A stretch of DNA of 64,000 nucleotides from Candidatus Bathyarchaeota archaeon (GTDB lineage: Archaea > Thermoproteota > Bathyarchaeia > Bathyarchaeales > Bathycorpusculaceae), in assembly GCA_026014485.1 (NCBI GenBank), contig JAOZIE010000002.1, positions 336,874-400,873 of the forward strand, in the 5' to 3' direction. The position numbers and the translations under genes are program-made. This document shows positions 1 to 56,252 of this stretch, piece after piece. The stretch's first letter is position 1. Each line of letters opens with the position of its first letter. Below the pieces are notes generated by a model, which saw only the letters and a list, made by a program, of their open reading frames with translations, made no database searches and had not been told where the DNA came from.

Positions 1-82
1 TACCATAAAATCAAATCAAAAACCTTTTACCATAAAATCAAATCAAAAACCTTTTACCATAAAATCAAATCAAAAACCTTTT
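1..82. repeat. 27-bp tandem repeat, three identical units, cut by the window edge
   Basis: Three consecutive identical 27-bp units occupy 2-28, 29-55 and 56-82. Each begins ACCATAAAATC and ends AACCTTTT. Base 1 matches the last base of a preceding unit, so the array probably continues to the left. There are no spacers, so this is a direct tandem repeat and not a CRISPR array. Function is unknown; it could also mark an assembly edge. Confidence 0.9.
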
Positions 83-347
83 CCTTTTTTTGGGACTGAC
101 TGGCTGCTTTACTTGTATTCAACGCGCTGCCCATTTTGAGTTGAATAGCTTAGCAACACAGTTCATCATTGTAAATACTGCAGATAATCCCCGCTTGTTT
201 CCGTTATTACTTTAGTTATAAGCCTGGCATCAATAGTGTGTAGATGCTTAGGGTGTGTTTGCATGTTACCTTAAATGTTTGAATATCCTGTGATGGGTCA
301 AAGATTAACCTTTGAATGATGTATAGAACTTGGGGGAACCTGTTGAA
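83..347. other. Non-coding stretch between tandem repeat and SDR gene
   Basis: No credible gene is seen on either strand. A weak TATA-like AT patch near 208-218 could serve the downstream SDR gene. Reading frames here lack ribosome sites and recognisable protein composition. Confidence 0.4.
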
Positions 348-1342
348 ATGAAGCTGTTGATTACAGGTGCTTTTGGGAATATTGGCAAAGCGGTGATCGA
401 AGAAGCGTATACGCGGTGTCATGAGATAACCGTTTTTGAAGTAGCGAATGAAAAAACCCGAAAGAGCGCTCGGCATTATCGAAATAAGTTGAGTGAAGTA
501 GTTTTTGGGGATATTCGGAATTTTGAGTCTGTCAAAGATGCGGTTCAAAAATCTGAGGCTGTGATTCATCTTGCGGCGATAATTCCTCCGTTATCAAAAA
601 AGAATAGTGAACTCACAATGGATGTTAACTATGGAGGCACTGCAAATCTAATAGACGCCATCAAAGAGACGAACCGAAGTATCCCGCTTATTTTCACTTC
701 ATCAGCCAGCGTAATGGGGCCCACCCAACTTCAAAATAACCTCGTCGGCCGAAATGACCCCTTGGTTGTTACGGGAAATTATGAGGAATCAAAAATAAAA
801 TGTGAGGCGCTTCTCAACAATAACGTGGATAACTATCTTGTTTTTAGGCTTGCGGGGGTGCTTCCGACTTTTTCAGCACGGTCTGTTAAAGACGTTTTTC
901 CCCTGTTGGAAGAGATTTTTGACATGCACCCCGATATGCGTCTGGAGATGATAAGGGCTGAAGATGTCGCGACTGCGTTAGTTGCGGGGGCTGAAAAACT
1001 GAAATCGGGCAGCACTCCGAGAAATCAGGCGTATATTCTGGGGGCGGAGAAAAAAATGGTTGGCAACTCAGGGGGAAAGAGTTCTTATCCCTGTTTTTTG
1101 GGGTCTTCGCACTTGAGGTACCCGACCAAAAATACTTCACCCCAGACATCAACAGGTACCACTTAGACTGGTACGATACTAAAGAAGCCCAACAAGAATT
1201 CGATTTTCAGAATCATACACTTGACGAATACTTGAAACAATTACACAAGACATTCCAAATTTTCAAGCTACCCACCTGCTTATTTCGAAAAATCATCATG
1301 AAAAAACTTGTACAGATGTCGCCCTATTTCGAGCAATCCTGA
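348..1342 (+). pseudogene. NAD(P)-dependent epimerase/dehydratase (extended SDR), frameshifted at an A7 run
   Basis: The protein starts at ATG 348; a TTG at 330 would add six residues. It has the Rossmann motif TGAFGNIG (residues 6-13), the NAG-like HLAAIIPP, the Ser-bearing FTSSASVMG and the catalytic YxxxK (Y145-K149), as in extended SDR epimerases of nucleotide sugars. The first frame breaks into unrelated sequence after residue 236. Stepping back one base at the A7 run 1050-1056 opens a frame that reads NGWQLRGKEF and continues for 95 residues to TGA at 1340-1342. The joined product is about 331 residues, normal for the family. The cause may be a sequencing or assembly deletion, a real mutation, or programmed -1 slippage on A-AAA-AAA. 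The substrate cannot be told. Confidence 0.75.
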
Positions 1343-49730: not shown

Positions 49731-50402
49731 TTACCTGAGTGTGGCGTTGTTTGGGTATCCTCTGCGCTCCCAGTACCCCAAGTAGCCTGCGTTGTCTGAA
49801 ACTTCGATTTGCGTTAGCCACTTTATCCACTTGTAACCATACTGGCTTTCCGCGACCAACTCAAAGGGGAAGCCCCGTTCAGGCGGAATGGTCACATTAT
49901 TCATCTTGTAAGCAAGCAGTATGTCGTTGTTGATTATGTAGTCCAGCGGCAACGCTGTTGAGTAGCCGTCGGAAGCATAAAAGATGACGACAGGGGCGCT
50001 TATGTGGGCTCCTGCGGCGTTCAGCAAGTCCTTCACGAGGACGCCTTCCCAGAGGATTTTAGCGCTCCAGCCATCCACGCAGTAAATGGTGACTACTTTC
50101 TGGTAGCGGGGAAAATCCAGCACGTCACTGTAGGTTAGCTGAAGAGGACTATCTACAAGCCCTGTTATGTTGAGGTGGTAAGTGGCTTGGTCGATGAATT
50201 GGGTTCCCGCTATGGCGTTTTCGTAGACTTGAGCTATCAAGGAGAGGTCTTCACCTTGGTAATTGCGCACTTCTGAAGGGTACAAAGTTTGGGGTGGATG
50301 AGGGGAACCGACAATTAACAACGCCGCAAAAACAACAACTACAACAACGACGACAACGTAGGGCAACGCCTTTCGAAATTTTGGGTTCTCCAATATTACC
50401 AC
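49731..50402 (-). CDS. Membrane-anchored sulfite-oxidase-like molybdopterin protein
   Basis: 223 residues with an N-terminal membrane helix (about 13-32, VVVVVVVVVF). The SUOX/YedY molybdopterin domain has the Moco-ligand Cys in TIYCVDGWSAKILWEG, followed by VVIFYASDGYSTALPLDYI and RGFPFELVAESQYGYKWIKW. It lacks the C-terminal dimerisation domain, as small archaeal and bacterial members do. It faces outside. It probably reduces or oxidises a small S- or N-compound; the electron partner is not visible. Confidence 0.85.
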   Translation of the reverse strand: MVILENPKFRKALPYVVVVVVVVVFAALLIVGSPHPPQTLYPSEVRNYQGEDLSLIAQVYENAIAGTQFIDQATYHLNITGLVDSPLQLTYSDVLDFPRYQKVVTIYCVDGWSAKILWEGVLVKDLLNAAGAHISAPVVIFYASDGYSTALPLDYIINNDILLAYKMNNVTIPPERGFPFELVAESQYGYKWIKWLTQIEVSDNAGYLGYWERRGYPNNATLR

Positions 50403-50565: not shown

Positions 50566-50805
50566 TTATTGTTTCTCCTCAACTACAATCATGGTGAGGG
50601 TGGAACGCACTTTGTCTAGTCGGCGGATGCGCCAAGTAACGATTTCTTTTAGTCTGTCCATCGTGTCAGCTTGTACGCGCGCCACTATATCGTAGACACC
50701 GTAAACCGCCGATGACTCCCTTACGCCCTCGACTGTTCGTAGCTCTTTTAACACATCGGTTTCCGATCCGATTTCGGTATTAATCAACACAAACGCTGTA
50801 GGCAT
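50566..50805 (-). CDS. Lrp/AsnC ligand-binding (RAM) domain protein
   Basis: 79 residues, ferredoxin-like RAM domain only: AFVLINTEIGSETDVLKELR, VEGVRESSAVYGVYDIVARV and VRSTLTMIVVEE. With no helix-turn-helix it acts as a stand-alone amino-acid sensor or partner of a full Lrp protein. It is 99 bp from the microprotein operon on the same strand. Confidence 0.88.
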   Translation of the reverse strand: MPTAFVLINTEIGSETDVLKELRTVEGVRESSAVYGVYDIVARVQADTMDRLKEIVTWRIRRLDKVRSTLTMIVVEEKQ

Positions 50806-51580: not shown

Positions 51581-51955
51581 ATGAAAGTCACGTCAATTTT
51601 AGGCGCGGTAGCCGCTGCAGTCCTGCTCCTCTTAGGCTTCATATTCATCTTGTCGGCAGGAGCCGAAGCGGTCAGCGCGCAGCCGGGACTGCAGGCGTTG
51701 AGGCTGATCGAAGGCGGAGTGATGCTTACCGTCGGCTTCGCATTGGTTTACGTTACCTATATTTTCTCGCGGAAACCCACAACCATCGTGCAGCGGCTTG
51801 AGCTTTCGGGAGCCATGAAAGCATCCTCCATACAGTGCCCCAACTGCTCCGCCTCATTGGACACAAAGAAAATCAAAATTGTGCAGGGCGTACCCTACGC
51901 GACGTGCTCCTACTGCGGAACCACATTTGAAGTAACTGAGGAGCCAAAATGGTGA
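51581..51955 (+). CDS. Two-helix membrane protein with cytosolic zinc ribbon
   Basis: 124 residues. Two membrane helices (about 5-25 and 44-62) are followed by a zinc ribbon with C86/C89 (CPNC) and C109/C112 (CSYC). Its stop overlaps the next start (ATGGTGA), so it is translationally coupled to the DUF2207-like protein. It is probably part of the same membrane complex. No family is named with confidence. Confidence 0.72.
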   Translation: MKVTSILGAVAAAVLLLLGFIFILSAGAEAVSAQPGLQALRLIEGGVMLTVGFALVYVTYIFSRKPTTIVQRLELSGAMKASSIQCPNCSASLDTKKIKIVQGVPYATCSYCGTTFEVTEEPKW

Positions 51956-53571
51956 AAAAACGCTTCCTCCTCGCTTTTTTGGCGGCGACACTGATTTTCT
52001 CGGCTGCGGCGACTACTTTTTCCAGCGGGCAGACCCGAGTTTACAGCTTCAATCAGGAATGGACGAAAATCTGGATAAACCAAGACGGCACAATCGACCT
52101 ATTCTACAATGTTAGCCTAACGCTTCATTCAGGGTTACCCATCAACTACGTGACGTTGGGGCAGCCTAAAAGCGACTTTATTATTGGAGAAACAGTTGAC
52201 CAATATGGCAACTACTTGGATGCCTCCAAAGCCTCTGATGGCACAGGCGTAAAAGTAAATCTTGACTCGCCGCTGACGGAAGGCAACACAATATGGTTTA
52301 CGGTAATCACAAACGTTGCAGGCATGATAAGCCCTGACAGTACAAATCCAGGCAACTTAGGCATGATGTTTGCTCCCGAATGGCAAGCTGTACCCATAAA
52401 CGATGTGCGCATCCAAATTGTCCTGCCGCCAAACGTAACCGTCAACGAGGTGAAAACGCCGCCAAACTATGATTGGAACAGCACCTCAACCGAACCTGAC
52501 GGGCGACTAGCGGTTTACTGGGAACTCGCCGTTTTACAAGCCAACCAGCAGTACTTAGTAGGCGTTTCGTTCCCTGAACAGTACCTTCCAAACTACAGTA
52601 GCAGCAGCGGAATCTCCCCGCTGGAAACCATAGGCATAGTCGTTGGGGCAATCGGCGCAGGCATAGCCTTAATTGTCGTGGTGTTTATCGCCCGCAAAAG
52701 AACCTACTATGCACCAAAAGTCAGCATGGAAACCTTGGGGATACGCCGCGGCTTAACCGCCGTGGAAGCCTCCTACCTACTAGGGCTAAAGCCCACACAA
52801 ATTGTTACAGAAATCCTCTACAGCCTGCTACAGAAACGCGCGGTCTGGACGGAAGCCACCAACCCCGCCTTGAAGCTGCGCATCATGCCCGCTTTCAAGG
52901 ATAAGAAGGGACCTGAAGATAATCCGCTGCGTTACTACGAAATCGACTTTCGCGAAGCCGTCAAACCTGATGGCACCTTGGATGAGGAAAGGCTGGCGAA
53001 TGCAGTTATGTACCTGCGGGATACGTTGGAGCAGAAGCTGCGGGGATACAGCCGCAAAGACACCTTGGAGTACTACCGCAAAATTGTGGATAAAGCGTGG
53101 GGGCAGGTGGAGCAGGCAGGCACGGGCGAGTTAGCCTCGAAAGCCTACGATGAACAGCTACTTTGGCTCCTGCTGGACCCCAACTATAAAGGGCGCACCC
53201 AAACGACGTTTAAGAGTCGCTCCTTTGAACCCAGCCCCTTCTGGTTCTGGTACTGGTACGGCTACACCCACTACAAACCCAACCCCGCTTACAAGCCCAA
53301 CATCAACGCTCCAGCACAGGCAGCTAAGCCTCCGACGATTCCAGGCGCGGACTTCGCAAACAACATCGCCACTTCGCTAGAGAAAACCTCAAGCAACATC
53401 GTGGGTAACCTTGAAAAATTCGCCGCATCCATTCTGCCAGCTGCACCCCCCAAAGCCGCGCATCAGCCAGCCCATCAGAAATCGGACTGCGTCTGCGCCT
53501 GTGCAGCGTGTGCTTGTGCTTGCGCTTGCGTTTCTTGTGCGTGTGCATGTGCGGGTGGAGGTGTCGGATAG
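51949..53571 (+). CDS. DUF2207-like membrane protein with ten-Cys C-terminal tail
   Basis: 540 residues. A signal peptide (about 1-26) and a large extracellular beta domain (about 30-215) precede a membrane helix (about 226-247). The cytosolic part (about 250-430) resembles DUF2207-type domains, with RRGLTAVEASYLLGL. A linker rich in Trp, Tyr and Pro leads to the tail. Residues 514-534 contain ten Cys alternating mostly with Ala (CVCACAAC, then CACACAC and CACAC), ending GGGVG. The stop abuts the ATG of a radical SAM enzyme, so the tail is a probable substrate for it. Similar Cys- or Gly-rich tails beside radical SAM genes occur elsewhere, as far as I recall. Confidence 0.78.
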   Translation: MVKKRFLLAFLAATLIFSAAATTFSSGQTRVYSFNQEWTKIWINQDGTIDLFYNVSLTLHSGLPINYVTLGQPKSDFIIGETVDQYGNYLDASKASDGTGVKVNLDSPLTEGNTIWFTVITNVAGMISPDSTNPGNLGMMFAPEWQAVPINDVRIQIVLPPNVTVNEVKTPPNYDWNSTSTEPDGRLAVYWELAVLQANQQYLVGVSFPEQYLPNYSSSSGISPLETIGIVVGAIGAGIALIVVVFIARKRTYYAPKVSMETLGIRRGLTAVEASYLLGLKPTQIVTEILYSLLQKRAVWTEATNPALKLRIMPAFKDKKGPEDNPLRYYEIDFREAVKPDGTLDEERLANAVMYLRDTLEQKLRGYSRKDTLEYYRKIVDKAWGQVEQAGTGELASKAYDEQLLWLLLDPNYKGRTQTTFKSRSFEPSPFWFWYWYGYTHYKPNPAYKPNINAPAQAAKPPTIPGADFANNIATSLEKTSSNIVGNLEKFAASILPAAPPKAAHQPAHQKSDCVCACAACACACACVSCACACAGGGVG

Positions 53572-54918
53572 ATGAGTTGGATGAACAGGGTTTTCCGTAA
53601 GCGGGTGGTTCCTGCGGGACGATACACTTACCGCGGCACAGGCGAATTCACAGGCATGGCACTGCAGCTTCGTGTGGAGTCAAGTGAACGGGGCGTTATG
53701 GTGATTAACGCGAACACGGTGCTTCACCTCAACCCCACCGCGTCAGCATACGCCTACTACTTCATGCAGGGCATGACTAAGGCGGAAGTGGTCAAGAAAA
53801 TCCGCGGCATATTTCGCGTAAACAAAGCCCAAGCAAACGCAGACTACGAAAAACTCGTCTACACCATCAGTACGCTGGCAAAAACCGAGAAAATCTGCCC
53901 TGTCAGCTTCCTCGAAGTGGAAAAAGAGGAACCCTTCAGCTACGACTACACGGCACCATTGCGGATGGACATGGCACTGACTTTCCGCTGCCAAAACAAC
54001 TGCATCCACTGCTATACTGGCGGACCCCAAGAAACCCCCGAGTTGAACACGCAGCAGTGGAAAGAAGCCATAGACCGCCTCAGCGACGTAGGAGTCTTCA
54101 TTTTGACGTTTACAGGCGGTGAGCCTACCCTCCGCAACGACCTGCCCGAACTGCTACTCTACGCCGAAAACAAAGGCATGGTAACTGGGCTGATAACAAA
54201 CGGCAGAAACCTCAAAAACAAAGCCTATGTGGACAAGCTGGAGAAGGCAGGGTTGGATTTTGTGCAGGTCACCTTGGAGTCGCATAAACCCGAAGTCCAC
54301 GACCTGATGACTGCCACCTCTGGAAGCTGGAAGGAAACCGTCGAGGGAATCAGAAACGCCGTTAACTCGCAGATTTACGTCACCACAAACACTACGCTAA
54401 GCAAGCATAATGCAGCGAGCTTCTTGGATACCATAGATTTCATCAAGGGGCTTGGCGTGGACGCTTTCGGTTGCAACAGTCTTATCTACTCAGGGAAAGC
54501 CAGTGCGGTCAGCCAAGAATTCGCCTTAACCATTCAGGATTTGGAGTTGCTGCTGCCGAAAATCCGCGACAAAGCACAACATCTCGGACTCAAATTCCTA
54601 TGGTACACGCCTACGCAGTACTGCCAGTTCGACCCCGTACAGCACGGTTTAGGCGTAAAATCCTGCACCGCCGCCCTCATTAACATGTGTGTGGGACCTA
54701 ACGGCGACGTTTACCCCTGTCAAAGCTATTTTGAGAGCCTCGGCAACATCCTCACTGAAAGCTGGAGTGAAATCTGGAACCATCCCACAGCCAAAAAAAT
54801 CCGCTCCCGCGCCTACGTAGAACCAAAATGTAAAGACTGCCCTCAACTGCAGGTTTGCGGCGGAGGCTGTCCACTTGAACTGCAAAACGGCAAGCTCTTC
54901 TGCGGCGAATCTGCATGA
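53572..54918 (+). CDS. Radical SAM/SPASM enzyme with PqqD-like N-terminus
   Basis: 448 residues. The N-terminal part (about 45-115) has LHLNPTASAYAYYFMQGMTK, like a PqqD/RRE peptide-binding fold. The radical SAM cluster motif is C140-x3-C144-x2-C147 (CQNNCIHC), with GGEP following in FTGGEPTLR. The SPASM domain has C365, C383, then C420-x2-C423-x5-C429-x3-C433 and C444, the canonical auxiliary-cluster pattern. Such enzymes crosslink or otherwise modify Cys-containing peptides. The ATG directly follows the stop of the tail-bearing gene. The chemistry is inference. Confidence 0.9.
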   Translation: MSWMNRVFRKRVVPAGRYTYRGTGEFTGMALQLRVESSERGVMVINANTVLHLNPTASAYAYYFMQGMTKAEVVKKIRGIFRVNKAQANADYEKLVYTISTLAKTEKICPVSFLEVEKEEPFSYDYTAPLRMDMALTFRCQNNCIHCYTGGPQETPELNTQQWKEAIDRLSDVGVFILTFTGGEPTLRNDLPELLLYAENKGMVTGLITNGRNLKNKAYVDKLEKAGLDFVQVTLESHKPEVHDLMTATSGSWKETVEGIRNAVNSQIYVTTNTTLSKHNAASFLDTIDFIKGLGVDAFGCNSLIYSGKASAVSQEFALTIQDLELLLPKIRDKAQHLGLKFLWYTPTQYCQFDPVQHGLGVKSCTAALINMCVGPNGDVYPCQSYFESLGNILTESWSEIWNHPTAKKIRSRAYVEPKCKDCPQLQVCGGGCPLELQNGKLFCGESA

Positions 54919-54998: not shown

Positions 54999-56252
54999 GT
55001 GAAAACGTTGACTACACCAAACAGGGGAAAAACGAAGCTTGCGGTTTTCGATGTTGAAGGCGTATTGGTACCCCGAAATCGCCTTTTCCTTGAAGTCGGC
55101 AAAAGCATGGGTTTTGTTCGGCTGATGAAGCTGCTGTTCTTTGGCTTACTCTATGAAATCGGCTTGATTACGATTAAACAGGTGCTAACAAGGTCCTTCT
55201 TGAACATGAAAGGAATAAACGTTGATTTGTTCTTTCAAGCGCTTGAGACGCTTCCGTTTATGCCCTGTACAATCGAAGCTTTCGCTGCCTTAAAAGCTCA
55301 AGGCCGTAAAACCGCGTTGATTAGCGCTGGACTGCCGACTTTTCTGGTTGAAAAAGTGGCTGCCAAGGTGGGCGCCGACTACGCGGTAGGTGTCGAAGCA
55401 GGCGTAAAAAACAACGTTCTGACAGGAGAGGTGTGGGGCAACGCCACGGAACCCAACGGCAAGTTTCTTGTCCTCAAAGACATAATGGAGAAGGAACACG
55501 TAACGGCGGCTGAATGCGCAGTTATAGCAGATGACAGAAACAACAGCAGCATGTTCCTTAAAGAAGCCCTAAAAATCGGTTACAACCCCGACTTTGTGCT
55601 CCGAGTCAAAGCAGATGTCGTAGTAACAGGCAGATTGACAAAGCTTTTGCCTGAGATAAACAGGGAACCAAAAAAGAGAACCTTACCTACCCGACGGGAC
55701 CTGCTACGAGAGTTCATTCACGGCTCAGGCTTCTTCATTCCAATCCTCGCCATCCTGTTTGGAGTTCCAGCGGTGGCGGTTTTCACCTGCACAGTCATCG
55801 CCTTTTACTGCGTATCAGAGTTTGCAAGAGTAAAGGGAACAAACATTCCGTTCTTCTCGTTTGTCACGCGCCACGCAGCATCCCTCTCGGAACTTCGCGA
55901 ATTCACGCTGGCGCCACTATACTTCGCGTTTGGCATCTTGTTAACGTTGCTGCTTTTCCCCGCGCCCGCAAGCTACGCTGGAATCGCAATTTTCGCGCTG
56001 GGAGACAGCACAGCATCCATAGTTGGAGGCACCATAGCAAAAAACCCGTTACATTTCAACAAATCAAAAACGCTGGAGGGAACACTTGCAGGTTTCTTCT
56101 TTGCGTTTCTGGCAGCTTGCGCGTTCGTGCCGCCTTGGATAGCCCTAATAGGAGCAGCCATCGGCATGACCGTAGAATACCTGCCGCTACCAATAAACGA
56201 CAACCTGCTGATGCCTCTATCCACTGGGCTGGTGCTGATGTTCATAGTTTAA
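54999..56252 (+). CDS. HAD phosphatase fused to dolichol-kinase-like membrane domain
   Basis: 417 residues with a GTG start at 54999. The N-terminal 210 residues are a SerB-like HAD phosphatase: motif I FDVEGVLVPRN, motif II ALISAGLPTF and motif III with CAVIADDRNNS. The rest (about 235-417) has about six helices and GDSTASIVGGTIAK, the signature of the dolichol kinase/cytidylyltransferase-like family. The fusion suggests a lipid-phosphate step where one half makes and the other removes a phosphate. The substrate is unknown. It follows the rSAM gene by 81 bp and may belong to its transcript. Confidence 0.82.
   Translation: MKTLTTPNRGKTKLAVFDVEGVLVPRNRLFLEVGKSMGFVRLMKLLFFGLLYEIGLITIKQVLTRSFLNMKGINVDLFFQALETLPFMPCTIEAFAALKAQGRKTALISAGLPTFLVEKVAAKVGADYAVGVEAGVKNNVLTGEVWGNATEPNGKFLVLKDIMEKEHVTAAECAVIADDRNNSSMFLKEALKIGYNPDFVLRVKADVVVTGRLTKLLPEINREPKKRTLPTRRDLLREFIHGSGFFIPILAILFGVPAVAVFTCTVIAFYCVSEFARVKGTNIPFFSFVTRHAASLSELREFTLAPLYFAFGILLTLLLFPAPASYAGIAIFALGDSTASIVGGTIAKNPLHFNKSKTLEGTLAGFFFAFLAACAFVPPWIALIGAAIGMTVEYLPLPINDNLLMPLSTGLVLMFIV

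Follow-up and report, generated by a model that had tools for sequence, protein, structure and literature searches.

A radical SAM/SPASM enzyme paired with a patterned cysteine-alanine tail on a membrane protein in Bathyarchaeia and bacteria, and the probable modification of the tail

Sactipeptide maturases combine a recognition element (RRE) for ribosomally synthesized and post-translationally modified peptides (RiPPs) with radical S-adenosylmethionine (SAM) and twitch/SPASM domains (PMC8172795). The known substrates of the peptide cross-linkers SkfB, AlbA and ThnB (sactipeptide), SuiB and CteB are short leader-core peptides. A larger target has been proposed, from genomes only, for TIGR04222 membrane proteins, which bear C-terminal Cys-rich segments and adjoin multinuclear iron oxidases (MNIOs), mainly in Actinomycetota (PMC12452194). 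Here we describe an operon in a stretch of 64,000 nucleotides (“the window”, contig JAOZIE010000002.1) from a member of the Bathyarchaeia with a genome of 2.37 Mb that is 96.5% complete. A radical SAM/SPASM enzyme is encoded in it directly after a membrane protein that ends in alternating cysteine and alanine. As judged from sequence comparison and structural models, the enzyme probably modifies this tail, which is predicted to lie in the cytosol, after translation. The genomes compared are mostly metagenome-assembled.

The TIGR04222/MNIO association seems to be the closest published parallel to this operon. The two have in common a low-complexity Cys-rich tail, a gene beside that of a modification enzyme, and a whole membrane protein as the proposed substrate. 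However, the TIGR04222 systems employ an iron oxidase in place of a radical SAM enzyme, and their tails, rich in Ser and Gly with Cys scattered among them, are predicted to be periplasmic, whereas the tails described here are strictly patterned and predicted to be cytosolic. The MNIO gene is also absent in a third of TIGR04222 genomes, in contrast to the essentially complete co-occurrence of enzyme and tail in the present case. Membership of TIGR04222 itself was rejected: none of 32 tail proteins matched at E 0.01, one bacterial homologue reached 22 bits against a cut-off of 43, and the window genome gave no match. With SkfB, AlbA, ThnB, SuiB and CteB, among which its best fold matches lie, the enzyme shares the RRE, radical SAM and SPASM/twitch domains, but its candidate substrate is a membrane protein of 540 residues with no conserved peptidase or exporter. 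The SPASM enzyme anSME, also a fold match, modifies, as the window enzyme would, a residue (Cys or Ser) within a whole protein and differs in producing a single formylglycine in an active-site motif, with no multi-Cys tail. The curated SPASM family TIGR04340 (ACGX system) is named for a target with a Cys/Gly-containing repeat; the target repeat differs from the present one, and the window enzyme, at 71.8 bits, stays far short of the cut-off of 400. In the open-licence PubMed Central (PMC) literature we found nothing on an enzyme-tail pairing beyond the MNIO paper, and nothing on radical SAM enzymes together with DUF2207 (PF09972), a family of membrane proteins that includes SMU.243 of Streptococcus mutans (PMC10457818) and whose N-terminal domain is matched by some tail-protein relatives. 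The pairing of the enzyme with a Cys-Ala tail thus appears to be undescribed.

Three forward-strand genes of the window are translationally coupled: a zinc-ribbon membrane protein, the tail-bearing membrane protein and the radical SAM/SPASM enzyme. The open reading frames bear out the coupling proposed in the initial annotation, since the first gene overlaps the second by ATGGTGA (51949-51955) and the ATG of the enzyme (53572) directly follows the TAG of the tail gene (53569-53571). The ten Cys within 21 residues that had been pointed out near the C-terminus are likewise present, at residues 514-534 (53488-53550). A near-identical tail occurs in about 100 genomes. The archaeal tails read C-V/A-C-A-C-A-x-CACACACVSCACACA(G/S)GG, with one position exchanging A and V, and the bacterial tails read [CA]4-G-[CA]3-GGGR with minor length variation; within each clade the Cys spacing is unchanging in the tail alignments. 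Among 41 archaeal genes every tail Cys position is fixed, while third codon positions agree at only 42% in pairwise comparison, and the combination of fixed amino acids with drifting third positions indicates that selection acts on the protein. These observations, together with reversed-pattern controls that returned 0 matches in the Bathyarchaeia and Chloroflexota genome scans, rule out chance or low-complexity drift as the origin of the tail. On the Kyte-Doolittle scale the tail (53488-53568) is as hydrophobic as a transmembrane segment, for which automated annotation could mistake it.

One line of evidence for the proposed relation is the co-occurrence of the two genes. Relatives of the enzyme (n = 80, 44-84% identity) come from Bathyarchaeota, Chloroflexota, Coatesbacteria, Edwardsbacteria, Zymogenus, UBP2 and one Thermoplasmata, and 74 of the 80 have a tailed protein encoded at the same locus. 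Two of the remaining six loci are interrupted by scaffold gaps (L035, L036), one lies at a contig start (L044) and three have no tail nearby (L047, L065, L068). Genome searches located the tail gene elsewhere for L044, L047, L065 and L068 and beside an enzyme fragment for L036; none was found in the genome of L035, where gaps cut the locus. A scan of 232 Bathyarchaeia genomes with the tail DNA pattern and with the enzyme at E <= 1e-100 found the tail in 66 genomes and the enzyme in 64, all of them among the 66; in the two tail-only genomes the enzyme is frameshifted (G140) or cut by a gap (G176). Across 301 Chloroflexota genomes, enzyme (over 600 bits) and tail are confined to one and the same set of 20; a 21st match to the tail pattern (G295) is spurious, being a GC-rich match within an unrelated reading frame. 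Fisher tests, which ignore shared ancestry, give p values of 1.7e-55 for Bathyarchaeia and 1.2e-31 for Chloroflexota. The distribution of the pair is patchy even inside one genus. Tail-less homologues are rare in Bathyarchaeia, and those inspected are contig-end fragments (G068, G073) and one remote protein (G133). The initial annotation had anticipated that relatives of the enzyme would adjoin tail-bearing proteins with conserved Cys spacing, and the locus survey and alignments agree. It had also held that an enzyme without a tailed neighbour, or a tail-less homologue beside the enzyme, would speak against the idea. The former does occur, yet the tail is then unlinked elsewhere in the genome and not absent; the latter was not seen among the homologues inspected.

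The enzyme matches Radical_SAM (PF04055, E 6.7e-26) and SPASM (PF13186, E 1.3e-12) of Pfam, as do all 34 aligned relatives. Pfam PqqD finds no match in the window sequence itself; it is matched in 18 of the 34 relatives (best E 7.9e-8), some of which are pieces without the N-terminus, and in the enzyme model (pLDDT 82) the barrel is preceded by four strands and three helices, the layout expected for a PqqD-like domain. The assignment of a SPASM enzyme with a PqqD-like N-terminus, made earlier from the sequence, therefore holds. The SPASM pattern C-x9-15-G-x4-C ... CxxCx5CxxxC ... C is formed by C365, G378, C383, C420, C423, C429, C433 and C444, and most SPASM Cys are invariant among the relatives. 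The best fold matches in the PDB are SkfB (E 4e-17), SuiB, PqqE and CteB, the best sequence matches there are SkfB, PqqE and SuiB, and the epimerase EpeE is also found among the fold matches. No NCBIfam cut-off is reached: the scores and cut-offs are 92.5/300 for SkfB and 119.5/381 for PqqE, and AlbA and StsB fall far under theirs. The highest scores, for the haem-pathway enzymes NirJ2 and AhbD, are so far below the cut-off (149.6 versus 500 bits) that a haem-pathway enzyme was ruled out.

The model of the 540-residue protein, built from 32 aligned relatives (pLDDT 78.5), consists of an ectodomain, a single transmembrane helix, a mostly helical domain and a probably disordered end. Lys and Arg are more frequent after the transmembrane helix than before it in 30 of the 32 relatives (mean 4.7 versus 0.9). 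The tail is for this reason predicted to be cytosolic, which would place substrate and enzyme in one compartment. The ectodomain is similar to ribophorin I and to the N-domains of M1 aminopeptidases, a general beta-sandwich match. The initial annotation had assigned the protein to DUF2207. The window protein gave no match in a search with PF09972, although 2 of the 32 relatives (best E 1.6e-5) and a relative with a different tail described below (L095, 25.4 bits against a cut-off of 24.4) did. DUF2207 seems a fair but remote label.

The association extends to further enzyme clades, each with its own tail. The enzymes of a second clade, which share 34-39% identity with those of the first, are accompanied by a membrane protein that ends in CHSAC repeats or close variants. 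In one Chloroflexota class (249 genomes) the CHSAC-clade enzyme is present in 32 genomes, and all 30 genomes with the CHSAC tail are among them; in the other two the enzyme lies at a contig end. A third clade accompanies one or two proteins ending in [CA]2-3-G-[CA]4-GGGR, which mirrors the [CA]4-G-[CA]3 pattern. This clade was considered as a tail-less “orphan”, a status ruled out when longer stretches of DNA revealed one or two tailed proteins, either close by or on a separate contig; no tailed protein was found in one of its eight genomes (G647). Many Chloroflexota loci contain in addition a second, shorter enzyme paralogue that lacks the CxxxCxxC motif and the SPASM cysteines. This pseudo-radical-SAM paralogue, a possible non-catalytic partner, nests within the CACA clade, and the tree separates each of four groups (archaeal CACA, CHSAC, third and pseudo) from the rest by a branch with full support. 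A distant enzyme (32% identity) is followed by a Cys-Ala-tailed membrane protein on MT837216.1, a contig from human faeces that was deposited under the name ‘Bacteriophage sp.’. As the other reading frames of this contig look bacterial, gut bacteria probably share the association. Searches of viral and plasmid collections yielded no close relatives. One IMG/VR entry matches the tail pattern.

We propose that the 540-residue protein would enter the membrane with its tail in the cytosol, where the enzyme would dock on it, probably through the PqqD-like domain, and modify the alternating Cys by 5'-deoxyadenosyl-radical chemistry. The modified tail would remain attached to the membrane protein and may act, with the zinc-ribbon membrane partner, in metal or redox sensing or in metal handling. 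The tail is the most likely substrate because the enzyme belongs to a peptide-modifying class, has a PqqD-like domain and co-occurs completely with one tail, and because the pairing persists when the genes are unlinked and enzyme clade and tail grammar change in parallel. The earlier suggestion of a RiPP-like tail modification is supported in its co-occurrence and clade-specific spacing, from which we infer the modification itself.

Several points weigh against this proposal. Alternating Cys and Ala would also suit plain metal or Fe-S binding, in which case the enzyme would have a different target, and the p values above are inflated by relatedness. AlbA rejected Ala at its acceptor sites (PMC8172795), and Ala is no more than a candidate acceptor in the tail. 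The survey of neighbours in the relatives' loci found no conserved protease, exporter/transporter or immunity gene, so that the system is not a classical secreted RiPP pathway; in place of the short leader precursor, protease and exporter of classical sactipeptide systems, the candidate is a membrane protein of 540 residues.

Given a modified tail, we put at about even the chance that the product is, by analogy with the fold neighbours and in view of the Cys invariance, a ladder of thioether cross-links, each of which would join a Cys sulfur to a carbon atom in a nearby residue, Ala for example, with a loss of 2 Da. It is somewhat less likely that the enzyme instead epimerises Ala or Cys, desaturates or decarboxylates Cys, or forms cross-links of the C-C or another type, to which bacteria would add methylation. 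Several of these reactions are performed by SPASM enzymes of like architecture; the fold matches include the epimerase EpeE; a class I methyltransferase is kept in 29 of 38 bacterial loci; and in the CHSAC tails His and Ser accompany Cys, which leaves room for more than one chemistry. Nevertheless, the invariance of Cys across all tail types points to it as the residue that reacts, and the nearest structures by fold and sequence, SkfB, SuiB and CteB, are cross-link formers.

An unmodified, metallothionein-like tail that binds metal or Fe-S, with an enzyme that serves the pathway otherwise, for example by making a tail-bound cofactor, is unlikely. Tails rich in Cys and His lend themselves to metal binding, the operon encodes a zinc-ribbon partner, the top NCBIfam scores belong to haem enzymes, albeit far under the cut-off, and one unlinked Chloroflexota tail gene lies beside hyp-like hydrogenase-maturation genes. 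Metal sites usually tolerate shifts in spacing, however, whereas each tail grammar is fixed and follows the enzyme clade, and the PqqD-like domain suggests peptide binding. That the tail is a hydrophobic membrane-associating segment, co-occurring with the enzyme through operon inheritance only, is very improbable. Cys and Ala do count as hydrophobic residues on the Kyte-Doolittle scale, as does the tail as a segment, but tail and enzyme stay together when unlinked, invariant Cys are needless for an anchor and the CHSAC tails are not hydrophobic anchors.

The first protein of the operon carries a C-terminal CxxC...CxxC zinc ribbon and two hydrophobic segments, with only weak matches to zinc-ribbon hidden Markov models, and its relatives are present at 57 of the 80 enzyme loci. 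The three core genes are the only conserved neighbours in archaeal loci, and the HAD gene downstream in the window is not among them. The methyltransferase of the bacterial loci may methylate the tail. In Chloroflexota locus L098 (1677-7975), the genes beside the unlinked tail gene are hypF-, hypD- and hypE-like by sequence, and a hypE-like gene also adjoins the tail gene in L085. The coordinates of all features are collected in Table 1.

Table 1. Features of the operon, its flanks and related loci (window positions unless a locus is named).
Feature	Residues or remark	Position	Strand	Basis
Tail-bearing membrane protein	540 aa	51949..53571	+	ORF (open reading frame), model
Cys-Ala tail CVCACAACACACACVSCACACAGGGVG	514-540; proposed substrate region	53488..53568	+	sequence
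Radical SAM/SPASM enzyme	448 aa; proposed tail maturase	53572..54918	+	ORF, Pfam, model, fold matches
PqqD-like (RRE-type) N-terminal domain	16-104	53617..53883	+	model, relatives' PqqD matches
Radical SAM CxxxCxxC	C140, C144, C147; invariant in 34 relatives	53989..54012	+	alignment
WYTPTQYC signature	344-351; invariant	54601..54624	+	alignment
SPASM domain	C365, C373, C383, C420, C423, C429, C433, C444	54664..54903	+	Pfam, alignment
N-terminal signal-type helix (tail-bearing protein)	3-23			model
Beta-sandwich ectodomain (tail-bearing protein)	31-209			model
Transmembrane helix (tail-bearing protein)	224-248	52618..52692	+	model, Lys/Arg counts
Mostly helical domain (tail-bearing protein)	270-421			model
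Helix (tail-bearing protein)	466-484			model
Low-confidence, probably disordered end (tail-bearing protein)	499-540			model
Zinc-ribbon membrane protein	124 aa; first operon gene	51581..51955	+	ORF, hydropathy
HAD-domain protein	hydrophobic C-terminal half; downstream gene	54999-56252	+	Pfam
Oxidored_molyb-domain protein	flanking gene	49731-50402	-	
Lrp/AsnC ligand-binding protein	flanking gene	50566-50805	-	
CHSAC-tailed membrane proteins	beside own radical SAM/SPASM clade	L094:7093-8847; L095:4052-5824; L099-L118	- (L094, L095)	
Third-clade operons	two tandem tailed proteins, further radical-SAM-like paralogue, methyltransferase-like gene	L146:4894-10815; L148:5165-11179	+	
Distant enzyme, then Cys-Ala-tailed membrane protein	32% identity; tail CASSCACACASSCACACACAGGGRAGCSVKDFY	L154:2440-5084 (MT837216.1)	+	
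Pseudo-radical-SAM paralogue		L053:7222-8397; L059:7343-8569; L052:178-1407	+	
Class I methyltransferase		L053:8198-9166; L071:7242-8063; L097:6816-7643	+	

These loci likely represent a widespread and undescribed class of radical SAM systems for the covalent remodelling of membrane proteins at their cytosolic C-terminal tails. Each enzyme clade would read its own Cys code, either [CA]n blocks or repeats of CHSAC, and Chloroflexota would add to the system a pseudo-paralogue and a methyltransferase. The radical SAM maturases known from RiPP pathways act on small peptides, while the apparent substrate here, in both archaea and bacteria, is a tail that a membrane protein keeps permanently. The co-varying natural variants of tail and enzyme constitute a ready enzyme-substrate series on how SPASM enzymes read repeated Cys. 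The parallel with the MNIO/TIGR04222 systems, which use unrelated chemistry, suggests that modification of Cys tails recurs as a device among membrane proteins.

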